Assembly (NCBI GenBank): GCA_001767525.1
Contig: MELF01000028.1
Location: forward strand, 1-38,437
Source of the DNA: Acidobacteria bacterium RIFCSPLOWO2_12_FULL_68_19
GTDB taxonomy: Bacteria; Acidobacteriota; Vicinamibacteria; Vicinamibacterales; UBA2999
DNA length: 38,437 bases
Direction of reading: 5' to 3'
Below, piece after piece: positions 16,102-36,286 of the stretch. The notes under the pieces were generated by a model, which searched no databases, had not been told where the DNA came from, and worked only from the letters and a program-made list of their open reading frames with translations. Positions within the stretch are counted from its first letter, which is position 1. The number at the start of each line of letters is the position of its first letter. The translations under genes and the position numbers were made by a program.

Positions 16102-17376
16102 CTACGATCGTTTGGCTTTGGCCACGAGGCGCTCGAACCGGCCCAGCACCGCCTCCCAACGGTAGTGCTGCCGCACGTACCGGCGTCCGTTCTCGCCGAG
16201 CCGAGCGCGCAGACGCGGATCGTGCATCAGAAGTCGCAGCGCTTCGATGAATTCCGCGCGGGTGGCGTAGTAGAGGCCCGCATGTGCCCGCCGGCAATGG
16301 TCGACGGCCGCGTGGTTGCGGGCGTTCACGAGCGCGGGGGTGCCGACGGCAAGACTCTCCAGCACCGTTGTGGCGAGCAGGTCGTCCGGTTCGGGCGCCA
16401 GCGTCACGTCGGCCGCCTCGTAGGCGACCATTCGCTCGCGATCCGGCAGCACCCCGGCCAGGCGCAGGTACGGCTGCTCCGGCACCTTCATCATCTTGAC
16501 GCCCATCAGCACGAGAGCGGTGTCGCCATCGGCTGCCGCGTAGCCGTCGAAGTACTCGAGCATTTCCTCGCAGCCGTTGTCCGGCTCGATCCGGCCGCCG
16601 TGCAGCACGAACGAACCGTACAGCCGATGCCGGCGCCGGAAGAGCACGCCACGCCCCGCCAGATACTCGGCCGGCGCCTTCTCCGCCGCCGTGTCGCTGT
16701 CCGCCTCGTCCTGGTCGTTCATCTCGTCGGCCGGGTCCTGCTGATGGCGCGGGTACGTCTGCTCTGTCGGCGTCTCGATTCCGACACCCACGACTTCCTC
16801 GTTCGGCGTCGCGACACGGAGGAACCCGAGGGCGAGTGCCCGCTCCGCCGCCGACAGGTACCCGATCCCCCGCACGGAGGCGAGCAGATCCGCCCAGATG
16901 CCGAATCGCAGCGGCGGATCGAGCCGCAAGTGCGGAAAGACGATGCTGCGATCGGGAGCGACCGCAATGCCGAGAACGGTCGTGGGATGGTAGAGCGAGA
17001 AGAAGACCAGCGCTTCGTACGTGCGATGCTGGCGCTTCAGGTGCTCAATCAGTGCCGGCGAGGAAGGACCGAGCCGCCGCACCCACTCCTGCTCGTCGGC
17101 GCGGCCGTGCGGGGTCGTCAGGATCCGCGAGGACAGTTGGCGGAACGCCGCAGGATCGTGCAGCTGGCCGACGGCGAAGCGGCGCACGAGCACGCCCCGC
17201 ACCCGGTCTGCGCCCTCGGCGTACTCGTTCTCCCACGTCGCCGGGTCGCGGGCGCACGTGGTCAGGACGTCGACCTCGTGCCGGTCGCTCAGGTGCTCGG
17301 CAAGCATGCGGCAGGCGTGCTCCGAGCCGCCTGGAACTTCTGCGCCGTAGCGGGGTGTGACGAACGCGAACTTCAT
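16102..17376 (-). CDS. Glycosyltransferase, GT4-like, with acidic linker insert
   Basis: A 424-aa GT-B fold enzyme, likely adding a sugar to a surface glycan or lipid-linked intermediate. The N-terminal domain starts MKFAFVTPRYGAEVPGGSE, the usual acceptor-side opening with the glycine-rich loop. The donor domain has GGRIEPDNGCEEMLEYF and the nucleotide-sugar site region LAPEPDDLLATTVLESLAVGTPALVN, with the EX7E-type glutamates partly kept. Between the domains (about residues 205-235) is a strongly acidic stretch, DPADEMNDQDEADSDTAAEK, absent from the paralogue upstream. The two proteins align along their length (FTTCARD/LTTCARD, NEYP/NEYA), so this is a tandem duplication. Its ATG overlaps the upstream stop by four bases (ATGA). 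Sugar and acceptor are unknown. Confidence 0.87.
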   Translation of the reverse strand: MKFAFVTPRYGAEVPGGSEHACRMLAEHLSDRHEVDVLTTCARDPATWENEYAEGADRVRGVLVRRFAVGQLHDPAAFRQLSSRILTTPHGRADEQEWVRRLGPSSPALIEHLKRQHRTYEALVFFSLYHPTTVLGIAVAPDRSIVFPHLRLDPPLRFGIWADLLASVRGIGYLSAAERALALGFLRVATPNEEVVGVGIETPTEQTYPRHQQDPADEMNDQDEADSDTAAEKAPAEYLAGRGVLFRRRHRLYGSFVLHGGRIEPDNGCEEMLEYFDGYAAADGDTALVLMGVKMMKVPEQPYLRLAGVLPDRERMVAYEAADVTLAPEPDDLLATTVLESLAVGTPALVNARNHAAVDHCRRAHAGLYYATRAEFIEALRLLMHDPRLRARLGENGRRYVRQHYRWEAVLGRFERLVAKAKRS

Positions 17377-18677
17377 AGTCCTACGACTGTCGAATCGTCA
17401 TGCATCACGGGGCCGGCCGGCACGCGCGCGAGGAGTTCCGCGGCGGCCGGGACCACCGGACGCCGCCGGGCGAACCACCCGGGCGGCGGTTCCATCCGCG
17501 GCGCCGCGGCCGTCTTCAGGCGATCGAACATCTCGAAATACTTGCGCTCGATCACGGACCAGCCGTACTGGCGCGTGACGTATTCGCGCCCGTTCCGGCC
17601 GAGCGCTTCCGTCATCGACGGCTCGGTGGCGAGCGAGTCGAGCACCGAGGCGAATTCCAGGGCATCGCCGTAGTACAGCCCGGCGTTGCTGCGCAGGCAC
17701 TGGCCGACCAGGACGTCGCATCGCTTGTTGGCGACAACCGGCCGCCCGAGCGCCCACGCCTCGAGCGCCACCATCGAGAGGCTCTCGAAGAACGACGGGA
17801 CGACGAGCGCCACGGCAGCCGCCAGGACGTCGAACTTGTCCTCGTCCGACACGAAGCCAAGATGCCGGATCCGGGGATGCGCCGGCACGTCCATGGCCGC
17901 CGAGCCGACGAGCACCAGATCCAGGGGCTCGGTCGAGCTGCTGCTGTACCGTATGAAGGAATCGAACAGTTCCGCGCATCCCTTGTTCGGGTCGATACGG
18001 CCGACGTAGAGGAGGAACGGGTGTGCCAGCCCGAACTTCTGTCGTGCCCGGGCCGGGGCGACCTCCGCCGGAATTCTCGATCCCACACCGACGACCACGC
18101 CGGGCACCTCCTCGTTCGCCGCCAGCGCCTGCAGCATGGCGCGCTCCTCCAGCGAGTTGTACATGATCCCGCGGACGCCCCGCAGCACCGGCTGAAAGAT
18201 GCCGAGCGCCACAGCCGCCTCGCGTTCGGCCGTTGGCACCAGGATGGCCCGTTCGGCAGCGGCCCGCGCGCCGTAGTAGGTCGGGAAGTAGCGAAGGCTG
18301 AACAGCAGGACGAAGTCGAACTGGCCGGCGACCCGCCGCAGCCGCGCGACGAGCGTGGGGCACACGGGCCCCTGACGCCAGAGCCACTCGATCTCCTCCT
18401 GTGCGGTGTGGACGCGGCCGAACACCCGGCGCGACGCGTGGCCGAACGCTTCGGCGTCGCGCTCGCGGGTCACCAGGAATCGCTCGACGGGCACGCCGTT
18501 CACCTCTCCGCTGCCAGGGGGGTACTCGTTGCGCCAGCTGAGATAGTCGCGCGCGCACGTGGTGAAGACGCGAACCGCCATGCGCGCCGCGAGCAGCTCT
18601 GCGATATAGCGCGCGTGCAGCTCGGCGCCTCCGCTGATCTCGGCTCCGTATCGCTGGACGACGATCGCGATCTTCAT
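17373..18677 (-). CDS. Glycosyltransferase, GT4-like
   Basis: A 434-aa GT-B glycosyltransferase and paralogue of the next gene. It opens MKIAIVVQRYGAEISGGAELHARYIAELLA and carries LLYVGRIDPNKGCAELFDSF at the start of the donor domain and VVPSFFESLSMVALEAWALGRPVVAN, the standard nucleotide-sugar-binding and glutamate region of the GT4 family. No membrane segments are seen, so it probably works at the cytoplasmic face. The ATG at 18677 is chosen because it starts the first beta strand; an upstream in-frame ATG at 18698 would add only seven residues. The gap to the preceding arginine-rich gene is 43 bases. Context suggests it acts with the UbiA-like enzyme on a polyprenyl-linked substrate, which is inference. 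Confidence 0.88.
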   Translation of the reverse strand: MKIAIVVQRYGAEISGGAELHARYIAELLAARMAVRVFTTCARDYLSWRNEYPPGSGEVNGVPVERFLVTRERDAEAFGHASRRVFGRVHTAQEEIEWLWRQGPVCPTLVARLRRVAGQFDFVLLFSLRYFPTYYGARAAAERAILVPTAEREAAVALGIFQPVLRGVRGIMYNSLEERAMLQALAANEEVPGVVVGVGSRIPAEVAPARARQKFGLAHPFLLYVGRIDPNKGCAELFDSFIRYSSSSTEPLDLVLVGSAAMDVPAHPRIRHLGFVSDEDKFDVLAAAVALVVPSFFESLSMVALEAWALGRPVVANKRCDVLVGQCLRSNAGLYYGDALEFASVLDSLATEPSMTEALGRNGREYVTRQYGWSVIERKYFEMFDRLKTAAAPRMEPPPGWFARRRPVVPAAAELLARVPAGPVMHDDSTVVGL

Positions 18678-18720
18678 GCGTCGATCTACGGTTGGCAAGG
18701 ACGCGACGATCGAAGCGGAA

Positions 18721-19803
18721 CTAGTCCAGCCGCTCGGAGTCCGGATGATCGGACGGGAGCGAGGGAACGGCCGCCTGTTCGTCGGCCGCCGCTGGTGCGG
18801 GCGCCGCCTCGGCCGCCGCGGCCGGCATCTCGTCTTCCGCTCGACCCGGCGGCGCTTGGTCGGCCGTCGCCGTCGCCTCGTCGAATTCTGCGGCAGCCGC
18901 GGTGCCCTCGTCGTGCGGCTCCTGTTCCGCCGCCAGGAGGGAGACGGCCGCGGGCTGCACCGCCTCGGCCATCGTTCCGCCTCCGCGGCGTCCCCGCCGG
19001 CGCCGCCGCCGGCGCCGGGCGCTGTCCGGCAGTGCAGGCTCGGCGCCGGTCTCGGCCGTGGCGCCCGCGTCCGGCCTCGGCTGGGGAGCCGTCTCGGCGG
19101 CGCGCGGCGAAGGCCGCAGTTCGTGCAGCGCCCCTTCGACGCCGCGGACGCGGCGATCAGCGAAATCGACGCGCCCGGCGAGCGACTCCACCCGCGTCGA
19201 GAGCGCCTGCACCTCGAGGCTGAGGCGCGACATCTCCGTCACGAGTCGCTGCACGATCGTGTAGTGCAGTGCGTTCCACTCCGCCTGCCGCCGGTCGCGC
19301 GCCCCGTCGCGCTCGGCCGCCTCGACGTTCAGCCGCGCCTGCAGGTGCAGCGCGCGAATGAGCGGGTTCGGGTTGAAGAGGAGCTTCAGCAGCGGGTTCA
19401 GCAGCTTCCGGATGAAACGGAGGATCGGGCGGTGCGAGTCGTAGAGCGTCGTGTCCTCGAAGGCGTAGACCGGCTCCGGGGGCAGCTTCTTCTCCTCTCC
19501 GGCGAGAACGTCGTCGACCCGCCGCCGCAGTGTGTCGAGGAACTCGGGCTTCATCGCGCGGGGATCGAGGATGTACTCGAGCCGCCGCGCGGCGAGTTCG
19601 TCGATCTGCTGGTGCGAGAGGTCCACACCCTGGCGCTCGGCGATGCGTGCGCGAATCTCGCGCATGATCTGCTCGACGTCGATCTGATCGTGACTCTGGG
19701 ACGCCTGCGCCTGCGACGGCGCGCGGCGGTCCGGACCACGCCGGTCGTGCCCGCGGCGGCCGCGATGGAAGTGTCCGCGCCGCCTGTCCTGGTCTGGTTC
19801 CAT
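18721..19803 (-). CDS. Arginine-rich/coiled-coil protein of unknown function
   Basis: About 360 aa, not recognised as a characterised family. Three parts are visible. Residues 1-35 are rich in Arg, His and Gly (RRRGHFHRGRRGHDRRG). Residues about 40-215 form a helical core with IMREIRARIAERQGVDLS, then DSHRPILRFIRKLLNPLLK and a heptad-like stretch (LVTEMSRLSLEVQALSTRV); its opening resembles a helical segment that precedes methyltransferase or glycosyltransferase domains in surface-polysaccharide loci. The rest is low complexity: a run of eight arginines near residue 260, then an Ala/Glu/Pro-rich acidic tail. No catalytic domain, signal peptide or TM helix is evident. The ATG at 19803 follows the DUF362 stop by two bases, so the genes are coupled. 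It could be a scaffold or a nucleic-acid- or membrane-binding protein. Confidence 0.7.
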   Translation of the reverse strand: MEPDQDRRRGHFHRGRRGHDRRGPDRRAPSQAQASQSHDQIDVEQIMREIRARIAERQGVDLSHQQIDELAARRLEYILDPRAMKPEFLDTLRRRVDDVLAGEEKKLPPEPVYAFEDTTLYDSHRPILRFIRKLLNPLLKLLFNPNPLIRALHLQARLNVEAAERDGARDRRQAEWNALHYTIVQRLVTEMSRLSLEVQALSTRVESLAGRVDFADRRVRGVEGALHELRPSPRAAETAPQPRPDAGATAETGAEPALPDSARRRRRRRRGRRGGGTMAEAVQPAAVSLLAAEQEPHDEGTAAAAEFDEATATADQAPPGRAEDEMPAAAAEAAPAPAAADEQAAVPSLPSDHPDSERLD

Positions 19804-19805
19804 TG

Positions 19806-20930
19806 TCAGTACTTTCTGAAGAGCTGGCCCCATTCGGTGCGCATGAAGGAGCGGATGCGCGACCGACCGATGGTCGGATACCAGAGCGCGTCGTGGTAGA
19901 CGTTGGACGCGAAGGGCGCCCAGACCATCAGCGGCGAATGGAGCAGCAGTTGCTCGAGCGGCCGGAGGAACCCTTTGCGGATCATCTGGTCGCCCCAGAT
20001 CACGAGCGATCGGCGCGTCTGGAAGCCGAAGTTCTCCTGAGACACGTCGTCACCCACCACTTCGATCTCCTTCGGATCGGCGATGCCGAGGCCGCGCTCG
20101 TGCGCCATGCGGAGGAACGGAATCGACAGCGGATCGAACCCCATGAGCCGCGAAGCGACGGCGTCAATCGCCACCGAGTCCACGGCGGCGAGAATGAGGC
20201 CCTTCACCCGCGGCACCATCGTCCGGGGGCCGGCGCCGTCGCCAGCGACCGTGCCGTCCATGACCGTGAAGACCGCCGGGTGCAGTTCGCGCTGCATGTA
20301 GAGCAGATCGACGAGGACCTCGTGCATGTACTTGTGCGCGTAATGCCTGACCTCGCGCAGCAGCCCGCCGAAGGAATTCTTGACTGCCCCGGTCATCACG
20401 GCGTGGCCGTGGGTCTTGACCGTCGGCAGGTGCAGGATCTGCCGCCCCGGATAGAGGGTCGGAATCTGGATGCCCTCGGGAAAGATCTCGTTCAGCTTCA
20501 GCAGCGGGCTCTTGAACCGGTAGACCTGCCACTCCACATCGGTGAGCGGCGTGAACGTCAGCCCGTGGCGCTCGAGCACCGGCTCCCAGCGGTTGTTCCG
20601 GCACCCTTTCCGAGGGTCGGTGACGACCGTCCGATTTTCGACCGGCAGGAGGCGCTCGCGCGTGAAGCCGTCGCGGAGCATTTTCGACACGACGCCGTCG
20701 ACCTGCCACGGCTGCGACGAGCAGGCCGGGAAGTACTTCGTCCACGACAGGTTCAGCTTCAGCAGCGTATCGCGATCGCGCGCCAGCACGTCCCGGTAGC
20801 CGGCCAGATCCATGACGCGCGCGTAGTCCTCGATGACCGTTTCGGGCCGTGTCCGGATGACGGCCACCCGCGCGGCGCGAGACCGCGACCGGGGTTCCGG
20901 CGTCGCTGGAGCGTCAATGACGACGGGCAT
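19806..20930 (-). CDS. DUF362 domain-containing protein
   Basis: A 374-aa member of the DUF362 family (PF04015), of unknown function and sometimes linked to iron-sulfur proteins. Family features are LLKLNLSWTKYFPACSSQP near the N-terminus, LHLPTVKTHGHAVMTGAVKNSFGGL in the centre, and ILAAVDSVAIDAVASRLMGFDP. Only isolated cysteines are present (ACSS, KGCRNN), so there is no CxxCxxC ferredoxin cluster. The C-terminal hundred residues are richer in aromatics (LMVWAPFASNVYHDALWYP) and may associate with the membrane. It starts three bases after the stop of the UbiA-like gene and ends two bases before the arginine-rich gene. The context suggests a role in processing a polyprenyl-linked product, but no reaction can be stated. 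Confidence 0.85.
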   Translation of the reverse strand: MPVVIDAPATPEPRSRSRAARVAVIRTRPETVIEDYARVMDLAGYRDVLARDRDTLLKLNLSWTKYFPACSSQPWQVDGVVSKMLRDGFTRERLLPVENRTVVTDPRKGCRNNRWEPVLERHGLTFTPLTDVEWQVYRFKSPLLKLNEIFPEGIQIPTLYPGRQILHLPTVKTHGHAVMTGAVKNSFGGLLREVRHYAHKYMHEVLVDLLYMQRELHPAVFTVMDGTVAGDGAGPRTMVPRVKGLILAAVDSVAIDAVASRLMGFDPLSIPFLRMAHERGLGIADPKEIEVVGDDVSQENFGFQTRRSLVIWGDQMIRKGFLRPLEQLLLHSPLMVWAPFASNVYHDALWYPTIGRSRIRSFMRTEWGQLFRKY

Positions 20931-20933
20931 GCG

Positions 20934-21851
20934 CTACTTTCCCAGGGGCGTATACATCAGAAGGACCACCGTGCCGGCCCAAAGGGCCACGCACGTCAGG
21001 AGGGGCCGGTCGTTCAACAGCATCGCCGACGGGCTGCCGCCCCCGCGCTTCTGGTGCACCAGATAGAGATATCGGAAGATCCCGTACAGCACAAACGGGA
21101 CCGTCAGGCCGAGGCGGGCGGTGCCCAGGCGCTCCGCCGTGTCGGCGCTGGTGGCAAAGACGGTGTACGCGATCACCGTCGAGGCGGTGACGACCGCGAT
21201 CATCTGATCCAGCAGATACGGGCTGTATTCCTCGAGGATCGGCCGGTGGCTCACCGCGCCCTCGCCGAGCAGGACGAGCTCGTGGCGGCGCTTGCTGAAC
21301 GCGAGGAACAGGGCGAGGAGCGTCGTGCAGACGAGGATCCAGGGTCGGATCGGCACCTGGACCGCGATTGCGCCCGCCACGGCGCGGAGCACGAACCCGG
21401 CGGCGATGACGAGCACGTCGACGATGACAACGTGTTTCAACGTGACGGAGTAGAGGAGCAGCAGCGTCACGTAGGCCGCCGCGACGGCGCCAAGCGCGGG
21501 CGCCACCACGTACGCCGCCGCCGCCGCGGCGGCCACGAGCGCGGTCGCAGCTGTCGCCGCGATCCGCACCGGCAGCGCGCCCGATGCGATCGGCCGCGCC
21601 TGCTTGAGCGGATGCTGCCGGTCGATCTCGCGGTCTCGAATGTCGTTGACGAGATACATGGCGCTCGAGAGCGCGCAGAAGATCACGAACGCCTCGAGCG
21701 CGAGCAAGACAGCCTCCGGCTCGAGCAGGCGTCCGCCGAACAGGAGCCCGGCGAAGAGCAGCAGGTTCTTCGACCACTGGTCGGGACGAAACGACACCGC
21801 GAGGAGCGAGAGCGCTGAGTGATCGGCCGCGCGGCGTGATTCGACGATCAC
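20934..21851 (-). CDS. UbiA-superfamily prenyltransferase, decaprenyl-phosphate phosphoribosyltransferase-like
   Basis: A 305-aa polytopic membrane enzyme with about eight or nine TM helices. The first catalytic motif is NDIRDREIDRQHPLKQARPIASG (N69, D70, D73, D77), and the second region is YSVTLKHVVIVDVLVIAAGFVLRAVAGA. The HPxKxxRPIASG and GFVLRAxAG signatures fit the branch that moves phosphoribose onto polyprenyl phosphate, the first step to polyprenyl-phospho-arabinose in actinobacteria, better than the quinone branch. Neither DprE1 nor DprE2 is nearby, so the product here may differ. The start is GTG at 21851, four bases after the STAS stop. It likely supplies the lipid-linked intermediate for the two glycosyltransferases downstream. 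Confidence 0.88.
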   Translation of the reverse strand: MIVESRRAADHSALSLLAVSFRPDQWSKNLLLFAGLLFGGRLLEPEAVLLALEAFVIFCALSSAMYLVNDIRDREIDRQHPLKQARPIASGALPVRIAATAATALVAAAAAAAYVVAPALGAVAAAYVTLLLLYSVTLKHVVIVDVLVIAAGFVLRAVAGAIAVQVPIRPWILVCTTLLALFLAFSKRRHELVLLGEGAVSHRPILEEYSPYLLDQMIAVVTASTVIAYTVFATSADTAERLGTARLGLTVPFVLYGIFRYLYLVHQKRGGGSPSAMLLNDRPLLTCVALWAGTVVLLMYTPLGK

Positions 21852-21855
21852 CCGA

Positions 21856-22206
21856 TCAGGCGCTGGCAGAGGAGAAACTGCGGACTGCGTCCGCCTCGTT
21901 GTCGTAGGTCTCGAACACCGTGAGCAGCTTCGTGATCGCCAGCAGATCTGTGATGCGTTTGGTCAGGTTGAGGAGCTTCAGGCGGCCGCCCTGACGGCTG
22001 ACGGTGGTGTAGGTTCGCACGATTTCCCCCAGCCCCGCGCTATCGATGTACGGCACGCCGGCGAGGTTGAGCACGAGCTTCTTGCGCCCCTGGAGGATGA
22101 GGCTGTTGATCTTGTCCTTGAGCGCCTCGTCGCCTTCGCCGAGCGTCATCTTTCCCTTGAGTTCCAGTATCGTGACGTCTCCGGCGGCACGTTCCTCGAT
22201 CTGCAT
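21856..22206 (-). CDS. STAS-domain protein (anti-sigma-factor antagonist-like)
   Basis: A 116-aa single STAS domain of the SpoIIAA/RsbV type. Residues 1-20 form the first strands (MQIEERAAGDVTILELKGKM). The phosphorylatable Ser56 is in YIDSAGLGEIV, followed by GGRLKLLNLTKRITDLLAITKL. In the known family a serine kinase/anti-sigma factor phosphorylates that serine, and the unphosphorylated form releases the sigma factor; no kinase or phosphatase is encoded here. The ATG at 22206 has a strong site, AGAGGAG, about six bases upstream. It appears to be the first gene of the run with the UbiA-like, DUF362, arginine-rich and glycosyltransferase genes. Whether it regulates them or a distant partner is unknown. 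Confidence 0.9.
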   Translation of the reverse strand: MQIEERAAGDVTILELKGKMTLGEGDEALKDKINSLILQGRKKLVLNLAGVPYIDSAGLGEIVRTYTTVSRQGGRLKLLNLTKRITDLLAITKLLTVFETYDNEADAVRSFSSASA

Positions 22207-22236
22207 CGACTCTCCTCTGAATGAACCTCTACCACA

Positions 22237-22271
22237 CGGAAAGACAAGGGCCAGACCTGCGGCCTGGCCCT
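22237..22271 (-). terminator. Rho-independent terminator after the zinc-ribbon gene
   Basis: Reading the minus strand, AGGGCCAG (22271-22264) pairs with CTGGCCCT (22254-22247) across a nine-base loop, followed by TGTCTTTCC. It separates the rpsU/zinc-ribbon transcript from the STAS gene run. Confidence 0.65.
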
Positions 22272-22311
22272 GCATGCGCTGTCGGCAGCGAACCGTGAGA
22301 GCGACGAATGG

Positions 22312-22620
22312 CTAGACGCCTCCAGCACCGGCGAACTTGCGCTGCTGGAAGCATTCCTTGCAGAAGACCGGACGCCCCTGTGTCGGCCTGAAAGGCACGG
22401 TGGTTTCCTTGCCGCAGGCCGAGCAGGTGGTTTGCGTCTCGACCCGCTCACGGGTGGTCGACCCGGCCGCGACCCGGTTTGCCCGCTTCGCCTTGCAGTT
22501 CTTGCAGCGCTTCGGCTCGTTCTTGAACTGCTTGTCGGCGAAGAACAGCTGCTCGCCGGCCGTCCAGATGAATTCCGCGCCACAGTCCACACACCTCAAG
22601 GTCTTGTCTTGGAACTCCAT
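22312..22620 (-). CDS. Double zinc-ribbon protein
   Basis: A 102-aa small protein with two treble-clef or zinc-ribbon units: Cys10/Cys13 with Cys39/Cys42, and Cys66/Cys69 with Cys87/Cys90. The first unit has the LRCVDCGAEFIWTAGEQLFFADKQF pattern of a family common in many bacterial phyla and annotated only as a probable zinc-binding domain. The second ends PVFCKECFQQRK. It is likely to bind nucleic acid or protein, but the role is unknown. The ATG at 22620 is preceded by GAGGTGG. It follows rpsU by 37 bases on the same strand and ends at the terminator at 22271, so the two genes probably share a transcript. That suggests a link with translation or growth state. Confidence 0.85.
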   Translation of the reverse strand: MEFQDKTLRCVDCGAEFIWTAGEQLFFADKQFKNEPKRCKNCKAKRANRVAAGSTTRERVETQTTCSACGKETTVPFRPTQGRPVFCKECFQQRKFAGAGGV

Positions 22621-23029: not shown

Positions 23030-24301
23030 ATGAGAATCCTTGTCGTCGGCAACGGCGCCCGCGAGCACGCCATCGCGTGGAAGCTCGCAGGCGAACGCGT
23101 TGCCGATGTGCTGTGCGCGCCGGGCAACCCAGGCATCGCCGAGGTCGCCCGGTGCGTGCCGGCCGATCCAGCCCGGCCGTCGGCGCTCCTCGAGGTGGTG
23201 CGGCGCGAGCAGGTCGATCTGACGGTGGTCGGGCCCGAGCTGCCGCTGAGTCTCGGGATTGCCGACCTGTTTGCCGCAGAGGGACACCCGATTGTCGGTC
23301 CCACCAGAGCGGCGGCGGCTCTCGAGTGGAGCAAGGCATTCGCCAAGACGTTCATGGACCGCCACCGGGTGCCGACCTCGCGCTTCGAAGTGTGCGCGTC
23401 GGCGGATGCCGCGCAGACGGCCATCGCGAGCGGGAAATTCGGCTTTCCGCTCGTGCTCAAGGCCGACGGTCTTGCGGCGGGCAAAGGCGTGGTGATTGCC
23501 GACGATCAGGCCTCGGCCGTCGCGGCGGTGCGCAGTGCGATGACGGAGCGCCGCTTCGGTGCGGCGGGTGACCGCCTCGTACTCGAGGAGTTCCTTGTCG
23601 GCGAAGAAGCGTCCTATTTCGTCTTGGCCGATGGCACCGCGTTCCTTCCGCTGTCGTCGGCTCAGGACCACAAGCGCATCTTCGATGGCGATCGCGGCGC
23701 CAACACCGGCGGGATGGGTGCCTTCGCGCCGGCGCCGCGCCTGACACCGGAGGTCGAGCGGCGCGTGCTCGACGAGATCGTACGTCCGGTGCTCGATGGG
23801 ATGGCGCGCGAAGGAACGCCCTTCCGCGGGTTCCTCTACGTGGGCCTGATGCTCACCACGGACGGACCGAAGGTCGTCGAGTTCAACGTGCGCTTCGGCG
23901 ATCCGGAGGCCCAGGTCGTGCTGCCGCGGCTCGACGAGGATCTCTCATGGCTGCTCGGGGCGGCGGCCACCGGTGCGCTGCCGTCGCGGCCGGCGCGGTT
24001 TCGCGCGGAGCCGCACGTCGGCGTCGTGCTGGCGTCGGCGGGCTATCCGGAGGCGGCGGAGAAGGGACAGTTCATCAGCGGCACCCAGGAGGCCGCGCGG
24101 GTGCCCGGCGCCCTGGTGTTCCACGCCGGCACCCAACGGCAGGATGGGCGCCTGGTCACCGCCGGGGGGCGTGTGCTGACCGTCGTCGGCCGCGGCGCGA
24201 GCTACGCGGACGCCATCGACGTGGCCTATCGTGCGGCGGCGCACATCCGGTTCGACGGCATGCAGTTCCGGCGTGATATCGGACAGAAGGCGCTCGCATG
24301 A
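23030..24301 (+). CDS. purD: Phosphoribosylamine-glycine ligase (GAR synthetase)
   Basis: A 423-aa ATP-grasp enzyme for step two of de novo purine synthesis, joining phosphoribosylamine and glycine. It has the N-terminal MRILVVGNGAREHAIAWKL, VVGPELPLSLGIADLF, the ATP-grasp lid region KFGFPLVLKADGLAAGKGVV, SSAQDHKRIFDGDRGANTGGMGA and the metal-binding VVEFNVRFGDPEAQVVLPRL. Length is typical. The ATG at 23030 starts the first strand, but no ribosome site precedes it; a TAATTA at 23014-23019 would be a -10 for a very short or absent leader. It overlaps mtaB by four bases (ATGA), so the two are coupled. It is separated from the main pur run by mtaB and the oppositely directed rlmN. Confidence 0.95.
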   Translation: MRILVVGNGAREHAIAWKLAGERVADVLCAPGNPGIAEVARCVPADPARPSALLEVVRREQVDLTVVGPELPLSLGIADLFAAEGHPIVGPTRAAAALEWSKAFAKTFMDRHRVPTSRFEVCASADAAQTAIASGKFGFPLVLKADGLAAGKGVVIADDQASAVAAVRSAMTERRFGAAGDRLVLEEFLVGEEASYFVLADGTAFLPLSSAQDHKRIFDGDRGANTGGMGAFAPAPRLTPEVERRVLDEIVRPVLDGMAREGTPFRGFLYVGLMLTTDGPKVVEFNVRFGDPEAQVVLPRLDEDLSWLLGAAATGALPSRPARFRAEPHVGVVLASAGYPEAAEKGQFISGTQEAARVPGALVFHAGTQRQDGRLVTAGGRVLTVVGRGASYADAIDVAYRAAAHIRFDGMQFRRDIGQKALA

Positions 24302-28370: not shown

Positions 28371-29675
28371 ATGATCAGGCGTTACACCAGCGCGGAGATG
28401 GGTCGCATCTGGAGCGACCAGCGGAAGTACGAGACCTGGCTCCAGGTCGAGGTCGCCGCGGTCGACGCGATGGCTCGCGCCGGACTCGTGCCGGCCCAGG
28501 CCGCGCGCGATATCGGCGAGCGCGGCCGGTTCGACATGGCCCGCATCGAGGAAATCGAACAAGTCACCCAGCACGACGTCATCGCTTTCACCACGGCGGT
28601 GGCCGAACACGTCGGTCCCTCAGCCCGGTGGCTGCACTTCGGGCTCACGTCGTCAGACGTCATCGATACCGCCCAGGCGCTGCAGATGCGCGAGGCATGC
28701 GATCTGATCCTGCAGGGCCTCTCCGGCCTGATGCAGGCGCTCCGCGCGCGCGCCGAGGAGCACCGGACGACGGTGATGATTGGGCGGACGCACGGCGTGC
28801 ATGCGGAGCCGATGACGTTCGGCCTCAAGCTCGCGCTGTGGTACGCCGAGCTCGGGCGCGACGTGGACCGCGTCCGCCGCGCGCGCGGGACGGTGTCGGT
28901 GGGGAAGCTCTCGGGCGCCGTCGGCACGTTCGCGCACCTGCCGCCCGCGGTCGAAGCCGATCTCTGCCGGACGCTCGGACTGGCGCCCGCGCCGGTGGCG
29001 TCGCAGGTGATTCAGCGCGACCGGCACGCGGAACTGCTGGCGGCGCTGGCGATCACCGCCTCGACGCTCGAAAAGGGCGCCCTCGAGATTCGCGGGCTGC
29101 AGAAGACGGAGATTGGCGAGGTCGAGGAGCCGTTCGCCCAGGGGCAGAAAGGATCGTCCGCGATGCCCCACAAGCGCAACCCGGTCGGCTGCGAGCAGAT
29201 CGTCGGGCTCGCCCGGCTCGTGCGCGCCAATGCGGGCGCCGCCTTCGAGAACAACGCGCTCTGGCACGAGCGCGACATCTCGCACTCGTCGGTCGAGCGC
29301 GTGATCCTGCCCGACAGCTTCATCGCGCTCGATCACATGATCGGCCGGTTCACGCGAATCGTGGGCGGCATGGCTGTCCATCCCGACCGGATGCGCGAGA
29401 ACCTCGACCGCTCCCGCGGCGTGGTGTTCTCGGGCACCGTGCTCCTCGAGCTGGCGCGCCGCGGCGTGTCGCGGGAGCAGGCGTACGAATGGGTGCAGCG
29501 CAACGCGATGCGGTCCGTCAGCGAGCGTCGCGACTTCAAGACGCTGCTGCTCGACGACCCGGAGGTCACCGGGGTCCTGACGCCGGCCGAGATCGAGCGC
29601 GCGTTCGACCTCGCCGAGCAGCTCCGCCACGTCGACCACATCTTCGATCGAGTGTTTCAGGAGGTAGCCGTCTGA
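28371..29675 (+). CDS. purB: Adenylosuccinate lyase
   Basis: A 434-aa lyase of the fumarase/aspartase superfamily. It removes fumarate from SAICAR and from adenylosuccinate, so acts twice in purine synthesis. It opens MIRRYTSAEMGRIWSDQRKYETWLQVE; substrate motifs are TQHDVIAFTTAVAE, HFGLTSSDVIDTA and GRTHGVHAEPMTFG; and the flexible signature loop is GSSAMPHKRNPVGCEQI. Length is close to the Bacillus-type enzyme. The ATG follows the upstream stop with no gap, and its own stop shares one base with the purS ATG, so translation is coupled on both sides. Confidence 0.96.
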   Translation: MIRRYTSAEMGRIWSDQRKYETWLQVEVAAVDAMARAGLVPAQAARDIGERGRFDMARIEEIEQVTQHDVIAFTTAVAEHVGPSARWLHFGLTSSDVIDTAQALQMREACDLILQGLSGLMQALRARAEEHRTTVMIGRTHGVHAEPMTFGLKLALWYAELGRDVDRVRRARGTVSVGKLSGAVGTFAHLPPAVEADLCRTLGLAPAPVASQVIQRDRHAELLAALAITASTLEKGALEIRGLQKTEIGEVEEPFAQGQKGSSAMPHKRNPVGCEQIVGLARLVRANAGAAFENNALWHERDISHSSVERVILPDSFIALDHMIGRFTRIVGGMAVHPDRMRENLDRSRGVVFSGTVLLELARRGVSREQAYEWVQRNAMRSVSERRDFKTLLLDDPEVTGVLTPAEIERAFDLAEQLRHVDHIFDRVFQEVAV

Positions 29676-29953
29676 TGCGTGCGCGCGTGTTCGTGACGTT
29701 GAAGCCGTCCGTGTTCGACCCCCAGGGCACCACGGTCGCCGAGGCGCTCCACACCCTGGGGTACGCCACGGTGACCGACGTTCGGCAGGGAAAGTACTTC
29801 GAGTTGGAGATCGACGCGCGGACGCCCGAGGAGGCGCGCCGCGTCGCCGCTGAAGCGGCCGACAAGCTGCTGGCGAACCCGGTGATCGAGAGCTACCGGA
29901 TCGAGATCGACGCCGGCGCGGGAGCCGCGGCCTCCGCGGGAGTCGCCCGATGA
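29675..29953 (+). CDS. purS: FGAM synthase subunit PurS
   Basis: A 92-aa accessory subunit of formylglycinamidine ribonucleotide synthase, which links PurQ and small PurL and helps ammonia channelling. The body [18 protein letters not shown] and [20 protein letters not shown] is typical; the last dozen residues are Ala/Gly-rich and probably disordered. AGGAGGT (29659-29665) lies nine bases before the ATG, one of the strongest ribosome sites in the window. It overlaps purB by one base and purQ by four (ATGA). Confidence 0.93.
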
Positions 29954-30659
29954 AGTTTGCGGTCGTCGTCTTTCCCGGATCCAACTGCGATCACGACGCG
30001 TACCACGCCGTCAAGCACGTGCTGGGGCAGGACGCCGTGTTCGTCTGGCACAAGGAGACGAGCCTCTCGGGCGCCGATGTCGTCATCCTCCCGGGCGGCT
30101 TCGCCCACGGCGACTACCTCCGGACCGGGGCGATCGCGCGTTTCTCGCCGATCATGCAGGAGGTCCGGCGGTTCGCCGACGCCCGCGGCCCCGTGCTCGG
30201 CATCTGCAACGGGTTCCAGGTGCTGCTCGAGGCCGGGCTGCTGCCGGGCGCGATGCTGCGGAACCGGAGCGTCAGGTTCCAGTGCGAACACGTGTTCGTG
30301 AAAGTGGAGCAGACCGACACCCCGTTCACCCTGGGGTGCCGCCCCGGCCAGGTGCTGAAGATTCCGATCGCCCACGGGGAGGGGAACTACTACGCGGAAC
30401 CCGCCGTCGTGGAGCGCCTGGAGCGGAACCGTCAGGTCATCTTCCGCTACACGACCGCTGCCGGCGCGGTGACGGCAGAGGCGAATCCGAACGGCTCGGT
30501 CAACAACATTGCGGGCCTGTGCAGCGAGGCGCGCAATGTGGTGGGGCTGATGCCGCACCCCGAGCGGGCGTGCGAGCTCGCGATTGGCAGCGCCGACGGC
30601 CTCGTGGTGCTCGAATCGGCGGTTGCGTCGGTCACCCAGCGGGCCGTCGCGGCGGCGCG

Positions 30660-30663
<4 letters not shown>
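29950..30663 (+). CDS. purQ: FGAM synthase glutaminase subunit PurQ
   Basis: A 237-aa class-I glutamine amidotransferase that releases ammonia from glutamine for PurL. It has [14 protein letters not shown], the oxyanion region [20 protein letters not shown], the nucleophile Cys86 in [21 protein letters not shown], and the His/Glu pair in [11 protein letters not shown]. The overlap with purL is four bases (ATGA at 30660), as is that with purS, consistent with stoichiometric synthesis of the three subunits. Confidence 0.96.
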
Positions 30664-32900
<2,237 letters not shown>

Positions 32901-32912
32901 AAGCCGTACACT

Positions 32913-34418
32913 ATGAGCCTGTTCATGTTCGATAAGTTCCGCGAGGAGTGTGGCGTCTTCGGGATCTTCGGCCATGCCGAGGCCTCCAACCTCACCTACC
33001 TCGGGCTGTACGCGCTTCAGCATCGGGGCCAGGAGAGCGCCGGTATCGCCGCGTCCGACGGCGTCCAGGTGCGGCACCGGAAGGGGATGGGGTACGTCAA
33101 CGACGCCTTCGATGCCCAGGCGCTCTCCACCCTCCCGGGCCATCTGGCGATTGGGCACGTCCGCTACTCCACCGCCGGCGAGAGCAAACTCGCCAACGCC
33201 CAGCCGATCCTGGTCGACAGCGTGCACGGACAGTTCGCGATCGGCCACAACGGCAACCTCATCAACGCGGGCGACCTGCGCGAGGCGCTCGTCCGCGACG
33301 GCGCGATCTTTCAGACCAACAGCGATACCGAGGTCGTCGTCCACCTCTTCGCGCGGTCGCGGGAGGAGGGGAGCGAGAAGGCGATCGTCGATGCGCTGTC
33401 GCAGGTGCGCGGGGCCTTCTCGTTCGTGATGCTGACGCACGACCGCGTGTTCGGCGTCCGCGACCCGCACGGGTTCCGGCCGCTCGCGATCGGCCGGATC
33501 GGCGACGCGTGGGTACTGTGCTCCGAGACGTGCGCCCTCGACCTCATCGGCGCTGCCTACGTGCGCGAGGTCGAGCCGGGCGAGCTGGTCGTGCTGAGCG
33601 CGGCGGGCGTCAAGTCGGTCAAGCCGTTCGGACCCGCCCAGCACGCGCACTGCATCTTCGAGCACGTCTACTTCGCACGGCCCGACAGCTACGTATTCGG
33701 CGAGAGCGTCAACGAGGTGAGGACTGGTCTCGGCCGGCGCCTCGCCCGCGAGCAGCCGGTCGAGGCCGATGTCGTCGTGCCCATTCCAGACTCGGGCGTG
33801 TGCGCGGCGGTCGGCTTTGCCGAGGCGTCGGGGATCCCGATGCGGTTCGGCCTCATCCGGAACCACTACGTCGGGCGCACGTTCATCCAGCCGCAGCAGT
33901 CAATCCGTCATTTCGGCGTGCGCGTGAAGCTGAACCCGGTGCGAAGCATCATCGAGGGGCGGCGCGTCGTGCTGGTGGACGACTCGATTGTGCGCGGCAC
34001 GACGAGCCGGAAGATCGTGCGGATGGTGCGGGGCGCCGGCGCGCGCGAAGTGCACATGCGCATCAGCTGCCCGCCGACGATTTCACCCTGCTTCTACGGC
34101 GTCGACACGCCGCGTCGGTCGGAGCTGATCGCGGCGACCCATACCCTCGAGGAGATCCGCAAGTACCTCGACGCCGACAGCCTCGGCTATCTGAGCCTCG
34201 ACGGGCTGACCTCGGGCGTCCCTGGCGGCGGATCGAAGTACTGCACGTCGTGCTACACGGGGATCTATCCAGTCGCGTTCCCCCGCGACGAGGCGGCGTA
34301 CCTTCAGCTCGCCCTGAAGCTCAGCCCCGAACCGCTGCCCGCAGAGCCGGCCGAGGCCGTGCTGCCGCCCCTGGAGGATGTGTTGTCGCCGCTCGAGAAG
34401 GACCCGGTTACGAGCTGA
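32913..34418 (+). CDS. purF: Amidophosphoribosyltransferase
   Basis: A 501-aa enzyme for the first committed step, forming phosphoribosylamine from PRPP and glutamine. Residues 1-12 are a likely propeptide ending before Cys13 of [14 protein letters not shown], the N-terminal nucleophile. The glutaminase domain has [22 protein letters not shown], and HNGNLIN; the PRPP site is [14 protein letters not shown]. Cysteines in [17 protein letters not shown] and KYCTSCYTG fit the 4Fe-4S type, as in Bacillus. The ATG at 32913 has no ribosome site; ATG 32925 would shorten the propeptide to eight residues. It is followed by a 183-base gap before purM. Confidence 0.96.
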
Positions 34419-34423
34419 CGCCC

Positions 34424-34600
34424 GTGTCGCCACGTCTGCTGCCCGCCGTTGTGGCCGTGCTTGCAGCCGGGCGCGCATCGTTCCTGCAGCCGTCCGGAGA
34501 GCAGTCCGTTGCCCCCGCCCGGGGGGCCTCCTGGAAGGCGGCCGAGGGACCGACTGCGCGCGCCGTGGCGGCGACCCTCATCGATAGACTGGAAGTCTGA
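34424..34600 (+). CDS. Possible small ORF between purF and purM (58 codons)
   Basis: A GTG-started frame beginning five bases after the purF stop and ending one base before the purM GTG. The product begins with a short hydrophobic run (LLPAVVAVLAAG) and then is Ala/Arg-rich with no recognisable domain. Third positions are GC-rich but less so than in neighbouring genes. The exact fit between its neighbours is suggestive, yet it could equally be non-coding leader sequence. I give it low weight. Confidence 0.25.
   Translation: MSPRLLPAVVAVLAAGRASFLQPSGEQSVAPARGASWKAAEGPTARAVAATLIDRLEV
34511..34527 (+). promoter_or_regulatory. GC-rich hairpin in the purF-purM gap
   Basis: GCCCCC (34511-34516) can pair with GGGGGC (34522-34527) around a five-base loop. 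There is no T-tract. It could slow transcription or stabilise the upstream mRNA. Confidence 0.3.
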
Positions 34601-34601
34601 C

Positions 34602-35639
34602 GTGGACTACAAGGATGCCGGGGTCGACATCGACGCGGGGAACGAGACCGTGCGACGCATCCGCGCGCTCGCCCGGTCGACGTTCACCTCGGGTGTGCTC
34701 TCGGAGATTGGATCGTTCGGCGGGTTGTTTCAGCTCGAGACGGGCCGCTTCCGCGAGCCGGTCCTCGTGGCCACCGCCGACGGGGTCGGGACCAAGCTGA
34801 AGGTGGCGTTCCTCGCCGACAGGCACGACACCGTCGGCCTCGATCTCGTCAATCACTGCGTCAACGACATTCTGGTCCAGGGTGCGGAGCCGTTGTTCTT
34901 TCTCGACTATCTGGCGACCGGCCGGCTATCGCCGGAGGTGGCCGAACGGATCGTCGGGGGCATCGCCGGCGCCTGCCGTGACAACGGGTGCGCGCTGCTC
35001 GGCGGCGAGACGGCGGAGATGCCAGGCTTCTACGCGGATGGAGAGTACGACCTGGCCGGGTTCCTCGTCGGCGTCGTCGATCGCGAGCGGCTCGTCAGCG
35101 GGCGCGCGATTCTGGTCGGCGACGTGCTGGTGGGCGTTCCCTCGTCCGGGCTGCACACCAACGGCTTCTCGCTCGCACGCCGCATTGTCTTCGATCGCCA
35201 GGGGCTCACCGTCGACACGCACGTGGCGGAACTGGGGCGCACCATTGGCGAAGAGCTGCTCGAGCCCCACCGCTCCTACCTGCCGCTGGTGAAGCCGCTG
35301 CTCGCCGGCGGCCGGATCAAGGGGATGGCGCACATCACAGGCGGCGGTATCACCGACAACCTGCCGCGTGTGCTGCCCCACGGGACGACGGCGGTCGTCG
35401 ATCTGGCGGCGTGGGAGGTTCCAGCGGTCTTTCGCTGGCTGCAGCGGAGCGGCCAGGTGCCGATCGAGGAGATGCTGCGGACGTTCAACATGGGACTCGG
35501 ACTCATCATCGTGACGGCCCGAGACAAGGCGGAGCCGCTGATGGAGGAGCTGGCGGCGCGTGGTGGCCGCGACGCGCGGGTGATCGGCGAGGTGGTCGCC
35601 GGTGAGCCGCCGTCGGTGAGCTACGTCAACCTGTCGTGA
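34602..35639 (+). CDS. purM: AIR synthetase (phosphoribosylformylglycinamidine cyclo-ligase)
   Basis: A 345-aa enzyme that closes the imidazole ring of FGAM to give AIR. Diagnostic parts are DYKDAGVDIDAGNETVRRI, SEIGSFGGLFQL, VATADGVGTKLKVAFL, VNDILVQGAEPLFFLDYLATGRL, LLGGETAEMPGFYADGEYDLAGF, VGVPSSGLHTNGFSLAR and HITGGGITDNLPRVLP. The GTG at 34602 is supported by GGAAG (34591-34595) six bases upstream and by matching the family N-terminus. Its stop overlaps the purN GTG by four bases (GTGA). Confidence 0.96.
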   Translation: MDYKDAGVDIDAGNETVRRIRALARSTFTSGVLSEIGSFGGLFQLETGRFREPVLVATADGVGTKLKVAFLADRHDTVGLDLVNHCVNDILVQGAEPLFFLDYLATGRLSPEVAERIVGGIAGACRDNGCALLGGETAEMPGFYADGEYDLAGFLVGVVDRERLVSGRAILVGDVLVGVPSSGLHTNGFSLARRIVFDRQGLTVDTHVAELGRTIGEELLEPHRSYLPLVKPLLAGGRIKGMAHITGGGITDNLPRVLPHGTTAVVDLAAWEVPAVFRWLQRSGQVPIEEMLRTFNMGLGLIIVTARDKAEPLMEELAARGGRDARVIGEVVAGEPPSVSYVNLS

Positions 35640-36286
35640 ACCGCCGGCTCGGCGTCCTCATCTCCGGCCGGGGCAGCAACCTTCAGGCGCTCATCGAGGC
35701 AACTCGCGACAGACGCCTCGACGCCACGATCGCCGTCGTGATCTCCAATCGCGAAGATGCGCAGGGGCTCGCGCGCGCCCGGGCGGCCGGCGTCGAGACG
35801 CTGACCATCAGCCATCGCGGGTGGTCGTCCCGCGACGATCACGACCGAGTCATTGTCCGGGAACTGCGCGCCCGCGACGTTGGCTTGGTGTGTCTGGCCG
35901 GGTACATGCGTCTGGTGGGCCCCCCGCTGCTCGAGGCGTTTCCCAATGCCATTCTGAACGTCCATCCGTCGCTGCTGCCCGCGTTTCCCGGCGTCGATGC
36001 GCCGCGGCAGGCAATCGAGCATGGTGTTCGTGTGAGCGGCGTCACCGTCCACTTCGTGACCTCCGAGCTCGACAACGGACCGATCGTCCTGCAGCGGGCG
36101 GTGCCGGTCCTCGACGATGACACCGTGGAGACGCTCGCTGCCCGTATTCTGGTCGAGGAGCACAAGGCCTATCCGGAGGCGGTCGCCGTCGTGCTGGGCG
36201 GCGGGTGGAGGATCGAGGATCGGCGGTTCGTCAGATCTGCGACCTCCGCTTCATCGTCACTATCGCCACTTCGGGCGGACAGTTGA
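35636..36286 (+). CDS. purN: Phosphoribosylglycinamide formyltransferase
   Basis: A 216-aa 10-formyl-THF-dependent GAR transformylase. It has LGVLISGRGSNLQALIEA (phosphate loop), AGYMRLVGPPLLEAFPNAILNVHPSLLPAFPG with catalytic Asn108 and His110, and VTVHFVTSELDNGPI with Asp146. The GTG start overlaps the purM stop. The end is unusual: after the GGGWRIEDRRFV segment, where the fold should finish, a Ser-rich tail of about 18 residues is read from sequence antisense to the 3' end of the convergent metallophosphoesterase gene, an overlap of 56 bases (36231-36286). Confidence 0.95.
   Translation: MNRRLGVLISGRGSNLQALIEATRDRRLDATIAVVISNREDAQGLARARAAGVETLTISHRGWSSRDDHDRVIVRELRARDVGLVCLAGYMRLVGPPLLEAFPNAILNVHPSLLPAFPGVDAPRQAIEHGVRVSGVTVHFVTSELDNGPIVLQRAVPVLDDDTVETLAARILVEEHKAYPEAVAVVLGGGWRIEDRRFVRSATSASSSLSPLRADS

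Follow-up and report, generated by a model that had tools for sequence, protein, structure and literature searches.

A LarA-fold DUF362 protein beside a polyprenyl-phosphate phosphoribosyltransferase in an acidobacterial operon: a candidate nickel-pincer nucleotide enzyme for lipid-linked pentose

What could a DUF362 protein do beside a UbiA enzyme that resembles DPPR synthase? The question is raised by a six-gene operon in contig MELF01000028.1 of Acidobacteria bacterium RIFCSPLOWO2_12_FULL_68_19, whose positions 1 to 38,437 we analysed (the window, by which we mean this whole stretch), re-reading the six open reading frames (ORFs) and their strands and assigning domains by Pfam and NCBIfam scans of the proteins. 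All six lie on the minus strand in the order STAS, UbiA, DUF362, ARG (an arginine-rich protein), GT4a and GT4b (two glycosyltransferases). A preliminary description of the sequence had correctly reported six minus-strand genes separated by at most 43 bases, and had taken them to build a new type of polyprenyl-linked glycan under STAS control. The answer that we favour, with a probability of roughly 0.4, is a different one: DUF362 would depend on the nickel-pincer nucleotide (NPN) and isomerise the lipid-linked pentose made by the UbiA protein, a polyprenyl-phosphate phosphoribosyltransferase (PPPRS), doing alone what DprE1 and DprE2 do together. The features concerned in DUF362 are as follows.

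19806..20930, minus strand: DUF362 protein, 374 residues, LarA fold, proposed NPN-dependent isomerase (PF04015; AlphaFold2 and VIA-align)
20409..20411, minus strand: codon of His174, proposed catalytic acid/base (invariant in 105/105 rows; role suggested by the LarA spacing)
20379..20381, minus strand: codon of Lys184, proposed site of NPN attachment (invariant in 105/105 rows, at His174+10, which is the LarA spacing; role suggested likewise)
20334..20336, minus strand: codon of His199, proposed nickel ligand (His at Lys+15 in 105/105 rows, Lys+16 in LarA; role suggested likewise)

The DUF362 protein matches PF04015 with 80.6 bits (gathering score 24) and has no match to PF09861, the family of LarA proper; the NCBIfam model NF052623 (Npun_F2552 family) resembles it weakly over residues 165-290, at 42.5 bits far under its cut-off of 500. 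An AlphaFold2 model built from 68 aligned rows (mean predicted local distance difference test score, pLDDT, 91.0; predicted TM score, pTM, 0.90) indicates that this protein has the LarA fold, a point absent from the preliminary description. Indeed, the top 12 VIA-align entries for the model all belong to the LarA family, with Z of 13.8-16.9 over 212-245 aligned residues at 8-10% identity, while the 13th has a Z of 5.6, and all five Foldseek rows with E <= 0.001 come from the LarA family too (best 7.4e-5, TM about 0.4). Entry 4nar is GntE2, a LarA homologue (PMC7583248, cited, like all papers here, from excerpts). Rows near Z 5, which include methyltransferases, eIF2B and ribose-1,5-bisphosphate isomerase, were set aside as common-fold background. 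DUF362 and DUF2088 are placed in the same Pfam clan, CL0471, and DUF362 has served as an outgroup (PMC11770544). With the LarA superfamily (PF09861/DUF2088; 5huq, 6c1w, 9eia, 9q3j), DUF362 thus has in common the fold, the clan and, within one residue, the spacing of a candidate His-Lys-His triad, and differs from it in the C-terminal helices and in family membership.

In the Isosphaera LarA the catalytic His173, the NPN-bound Lys183 and the nickel ligand His199 are separated by 10 and 16 residues (PMC12611868). In all 105 near rows of DUF362, Lys184 is flanked by His at -10 and +15 (His-x9-Lys-x14-His), the Lys having been located without requiring either His; some of these rows represent the same gene listed by two locus names. 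Among 12 distant DUF362 proteins the Lys is kept in every one, the first His lies at -10 in 11 and at -11 in one, and the second at +15 in nine and at +14 in three (L248 and L249 being read from the alignment). For comparison, the second His lies at Lys+16 in 18/18 LarA ORFs of our phylum sample (described below), which were preselected by the pattern of His or Asn ten residues before Lys or Arg, 8 of 26 stretches being dropped. The DUF362 triad would therefore correspond to the catalytic His, NPN Lys and nickel-ligand His of LarA, with spacing within one residue. A search of the PDB with the single DUF362 sequence gave no match. An hhalign profile-profile comparison with LarA is insignificant, although its best local alignment places His174, Gly181, Lys184 and Gly189 on LarA His, Gly, Lys and Gly, so the kinship rests on fold, clan and spacing.

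Two genes for making the cofactor are present. The genome encodes LarC (E 1.5e-138) and LarE (277 bits, cut-off 150) and has no match to the LarA family PF09861, and the window's DUF362 is its sole PF04015 protein. In a phylum sample of 197 genomes, of which 55 were scored DUF362-positive (at least 400 bits; five with weaker matches were scored negative), LarC occurs in 54/55 DUF362-positive and 93/142 other genomes (Fisher p 1.4e-7, uncorrected for shared ancestry). Within the 96 genomes that lack LarA, it is found in 28/29 with DUF362 and 26/67 without (p 2.8e-8, likewise uncorrected). DUF362 itself is unlinked to LarA, which occurs in 26/55 DUF362-positive against 75/142 other genomes. In order family f10, genome G198 has both DUF362 and LarC, and G044, G054 and G175 have neither. 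Among controls, LarC and PF04015 are found together in Synechococcus and Haloferax, which lack LarA, and C. glutamicum and M. jannaschii have LarC without PF04015 or LarA. About 15% of genomes analysed in PMC11796402, many of them cyanobacteria, possess larB, larE and larC but no larA, so that the NPN user there is unknown; DUF362 is a candidate for this gap.

The neighbour that may provide the substrate is the UbiA protein.

20934..21851, minus strand: PPPRS / DPPR-synthase-like UbiA, 305 residues (NCBIfam PRK12324 above cut-off; PDB 8j8j; 10/13 Rv3806c ligand residues)
21621..21647, minus strand: codons of residues 69-77, the N-D-x-x-D-x-x-x-D motif for Mg and phosphoribosyl pyrophosphate (PRPP) (alignment to 8j8j)

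Besides a Pfam score of 70.9 bits, it exceeds the cut-offs of two curated NCBIfam DPPR synthase models (281.1 vs 234 and 231.6 vs 207 bits) but not the cut-off of a third, identically named model (158.9 vs 474). At 1e-5 the PDB has just two relatives of it, 8j8j and 8j8k, both Rv3806c of Mycobacterium tuberculosis, and the 8j8j match is full-length (residues 19-295 to 19-295, E 1e-38). Ten of the 13 Rv3806c ligand residues named in PMC10994848 are identical in the window's protein, the differences being Q135 to Leu, Y157 to Phe and K208 to Pro; Phe at the Y157 position is also reported for some mycobacteria (PMC10994848), and the Q135 position varies among our 135 UbiA rows. The ten shared residues, which contact PRPP, Mg or lipid phosphate, are retained in 128-135 of these rows, with N69, D73 and D77 in 134-135. 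A quinone-pathway role was rejected on the NCBIfam scores and the phylogeny: the genome's two other UbiA proteins score as a heme O synthase and a quinone-type UbiA-like polyprenyltransferase, and in a tree rooted on these two, the window's protein and 8j8j fall within one clade (133/137 rows, support 0.95) with both others outside. The DPPR-synthase-like assignment of the preliminary description is thereby borne out, including against the quinone-type grouping that it had named as a refutation. By family this protein is a PPPRS, and its residues make phosphoribosyl transfer its likely activity. Matches to it at 1e-20 occur in 53 of the 59 genomes of a first sample, the window's own included, and in 106/197 genomes of the phylum sample.

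The operon is real and conserved beyond chance. STAS and UbiA are spaced by 4 bases and UbiA and DUF362 by 3; DUF362 and ARG overlap by 28 bases (or are 2 apart if ARG starts at its next Met), ARG and GT4a are 22 apart (43 from an internal Met of GT4a), and GT4a and GT4b overlap by 4. Pfam identifies five of the six proteins, ARG having no match. We sampled 40 stretches around UbiA matches in the order and excluded three (L050, L051 and L052, with a distant UbiA and no operon), leaving 37 loci, one per genome. All 37 contain UbiA and ARG; STAS is present in 36, GT4a in 34, GT4b in 31 and DUF362 in 22; the sequence ends on that side in the six loci without GT4b, and flanking genes are mostly retained on both sides. 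Additional GT4 genes lie between GT4a and GT4b in 22/37 loci (GTc in 22, GTd in 21), so the window holds a short version of the operon: 13 loci have STAS-UbiA-ARG-GT4a-GTc-GTd-GT4b and 10 have the window's order. Gene order, a check that the preliminary description had proposed, is thus kept across the order, and the UbiA-DUF362 pair persists far outside it.

This wider pairing emerged from a search with an alignment of 20 DUF362 proteins, which gave at least 80 loci; the figures that follow hold among the matches listed. UbiA lies within 200 bases of DUF362 in 52/80 loci, on the same strand in 51 and on the opposite strand in L178; elsewhere it is farther along the same contig (4/80), absent despite room (20/80) or beyond the contig end (4/80). 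Six of the 52 (L114-L119) probably belong to the window's own family, and the labels of the other 46 include Aminicenantes, Rokubacteria, Zixibacteria, Krumholzibacteriota, Bacillota, KSB1, WOR-3, Gemmatimonadetes, Woesearchaeota and Micrarchaeota. These labels are the submitters' and may be wrong (L114 is labelled Acidimicrobiia). Outside L114-L119 neither STAS nor ARG adjoins the pair, and strong GT4a/GTc relatives lie near it in L165 only. A third constant partner was sought and rejected, since no neighbour cluster spans more than nine loci, UbiA, DUF362 and presumed antisense shadow ORFs aside, and no Pfam family reaches beyond 4/106 or 4/121 in tallies of 227 of the 273 predicted ORFs (46 were omitted as UbiA copies, short or overlapping). 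In the phylum sample, UbiA accompanies DUF362 in 54/55 genomes and occurs in 52/142 without it. A tandem that recurs under so many phylum labels with changing neighbours favours a substrate shared by UbiA and DUF362.

Among archaea-labelled loci (unnamed archaeon, Parvarchaeota, Micrarchaeota, Woesearchaeota), L178, L182, L184, L188, L191 and L193 carry DUF362 and a UbiA relative, adjacent in four and distant in L182 and L188. L204-L208 and L212 have the 45-48% type of the DUF362 subfamily away from UbiA, with UbiA elsewhere in several of the genomes.

The absence of DprE1/DprE2 had been taken to mean that the product may be new. Our search found no match to PF04030 (DprE1-type) at E 1 in the genome, the C. 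glutamicum control being positive and DprE2 not searched for, so that compared with the M. tuberculosis Rv3806c system the window's genome lacks a PF04030 gene and its UbiA has DUF362 as partner. Lack of DprE does not in itself point to a new product, because DprE-free systems are already published: in the excerpts of PMC11127046, a PPPRS together with a phosphatase domain, MATE flippase and GT-C enzyme adds ribofuranose without DprE1/E2, and a short-chain dehydrogenase/reductase (SDR) epimerase leads to xylofuranose. Compared with the three-component pentofuranose system of Citrobacter youngae described there, the window likewise has a PPPRS without DprE1, its UbiA lacks the phosphatase domain, and DUF362 stands in place of the SDR epimerase. 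The argument for a new product is hence not supported. If DUF362 replaces DprE1, both should exclude each other among genomes with PPPRS; PF04030 occurs in 4/54 UbiA-positive genomes with DUF362 and in 18/52 without (p 6.5e-4). PF04030 includes lactone oxidases too. In genome G121, which lacks this DUF362 subfamily, a weak PF04030 match (G121:C13:58881-60242, E 2e-6) stands directly before a same-strand UbiA match, a pair that resembles DprE1 beside PPPRS.

The mechanism that we propose has a core module of two enzymes. PPPRS would move phosphoribose from PRPP onto polyprenyl phosphate, a step strongly suggested by its family. The LarA-fold DUF362 would then hold NPN on Lys184, bind the nickel through His199, use His174 as its acid/base, and invert a hydroxyl-bearing carbon of the lipid-linked pentose via a hidden hydride transfer, for example from ribo to arabino or xylo. 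Arabinose or xylose differs from ribose by the inversion of one carbon, and an inversion of this kind is what LarA achieves through hydride transfer. One nickel enzyme would in this way cover what known systems do with DprE1/E2 or the SDR epimerase ORF13. Within this order, the product may feed an envelope glycan made with GT4a and its paralogues, the coiled-coil ARG possibly serving as a membrane scaffold; a 5'-phosphatase, a flippase and a GT-C enzyme would be encoded outside the operon.

Several observations weigh against this proposal. On the structural side, hhalign comparisons of DUF362 with LarA profiles are insignificant (E 0.64 and 0.81), a DUF362 profile search of the PDB finds no LarA, just two thiolase chains at E 0.7, and the first catalytic His of LarA (His108) has no evident counterpart in DUF362 alignments; one catalytic His is also missing in some LarA relatives (PMC12611868). 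The NPN cofactor and the pentose substrate are both attributions that we infer, and the characterised LarA enzymes in the excerpts at hand act on 2-hydroxy acids, a class to which lipid-linked pentoses do not belong. As to distribution, LarC is no clean NPN marker, because it occurs without this DUF362 in 26 genomes that have no LarA and is missing from 8 genomes that do have LarA; the control Bacteroides ihuae has PF04015 without LarC, and the p-values above are not probabilities of chance, because genomes share ancestry. DUF362 is missing from the operon in 15/37 loci of the order, 52 UbiA-positive genomes of the phylum sample are without it, and 34/106 UbiA-positive genomes have neither DUF362 nor PF04030. 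Pfam finds no phosphatase, MATE flippase or GT-C enzyme among seven operon and neighbour proteins, the rest of the genome not being searched.

Some of these observations suit other explanations. PPPRS might make lipid-linked ribofuranose as published, with DUF362 an NPN enzyme acting on another metabolite, such as a hydroxy acid that decorates the glycan. This would agree with the 2-hydroxy acid substrates described for LarA and with the fact that the pair is not obligatory, DUF362 occupying a separate locus from UbiA in some genomes; the recurrence of the tandem amid changing neighbours speaks against it, and we judge it unlikely. In a second alternative DUF362 has the LarA fold without NPN and uses another cofactor, or serves the PPPRS pathway as a binding protein or a phosphatase, for instance the missing 5'-phosphatase. 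The lack of a phosphatase in the operon, the insignificant profile comparisons and B. ihuae fit this; the triad, present in 105 near rows and 12/12 distant proteins with a shift of at most one residue, and the 54/55 genomes with LarC speak against it, and it too seems improbable. The new type of glycan under STAS control, as first described, has in its favour that STAS leads the operon in 36/37 loci of the order, but is very doubtful given that no STAS adjoins the pair outside L114-L119 and that DprE-free PPPRS systems are published (PMC11127046).

Returning to DUF362 as an NPN enzyme, a wider form of the proposal would make all PF04015 proteins a second NPN enzyme family, including the missing clients of larB/C/E in genomes without larA, and would make its UbiA-linked branch, which occurs under many bacterial labels and some archaeal ones, a nickel-dependent enzyme that epimerises polyprenyl-phosphate pentoses and so does singly the work of DprE1/E2; this generalisation is tentative and stands on the doubtful side. 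What makes the locus interesting is DUF362, a candidate for a second family of NPN enzymes with a tie to lipid-linked pentose. It provides the larA-less genomes of PMC11796402 with a concrete candidate NPN user that has a predicted attachment lysine, and if the UbiA-linked branch does act on lipid-linked pentoses, this would be a third chemistry for epimers of lipid-linked pentofuranose, and one from phyla with poorly known cell envelopes. In the open-licence literature, as excerpted, we found no published link of DUF362 to NPN or PPPRS except the outgroup use in PMC11770544.

The remaining genes of the operon and its upstream neighbour are the following.

21856..22275, minus strand: STAS protein, 139 residues (or starting at 22206, an internal Met) (PF01740 62.7 bits; TIGR00377 above cut-off)
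18721..19833, minus strand: ARG protein, 370 residues, predicted helical core flanked by disordered, Arg-rich ends (matched by neither Pfam nor NCBIfam; in 37/37 loci)
17373..18698, minus strand: GT4a, GT4-type glycosyltransferase, 441 residues (PF13692 57.6 bits)
16102..17376, minus strand: GT4b, GT4-type glycosyltransferase, 424 residues, Asp for the first Glu of E-x7-E (PF00534 36.5 bits)
22312..22620, minus strand: double treble-clef zinc protein, upstream neighbour of the operon (PF13451 and PF23477)

STAS is a companion of the operon specific to this order, and its supposed control of the glycan is unsupported. The ARG model (six rows) is of low confidence, with a mean pLDDT of 59.8, and has helices at 135-153 and 156-238 (83 residues) and disordered ends; the part conserved across the order spans about residues 48-240. 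Its description as an uncharacterised arginine-rich protein stands as to the missing family match, but the Arg-rich ends are found in six aligned family members (one cut short) and are absent from the rows of other families. Conserved Arg-richness was therefore rejected as confined to the window's family. ARG might be a relative of the N-terminal domains of polysaccharide-cluster methyltransferases, a lead that gained no family match and no plasmid match.

The two glycosyltransferases share 34% identity across 423 columns (E 3e-72), in line with the duplication noted earlier. GT4a retains both Glu of E-x7-E in 35/35 rows. In 35 aligned rows of GT4b, the first of these positions is Asp for the window and for nine relatives, Glu for 24 and a gap for one, and the Asp-type GT4b may, judging from this motif, have a changed or lost activity. 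Loci with the Asp-type GT4b lack GTc and GTd, so that the loss of two GT4 genes accompanies the changed GT4b.

The double treble-clef protein is retained in many but not all relatives, with up to 99% identity in the nearest. Farther along the window, a purine-biosynthesis-like run lies near the PPPRS operon on the plus strand (28371-36286), with domains of adenylosuccinate lyase, GATase_5, AIRS (twice), amidophosphoribosyltransferase-like and formyl transferase types, and 23030-24301 resembles PurD by eye only. PRPP is a substrate of both PurF-type enzymes and PPPRS.

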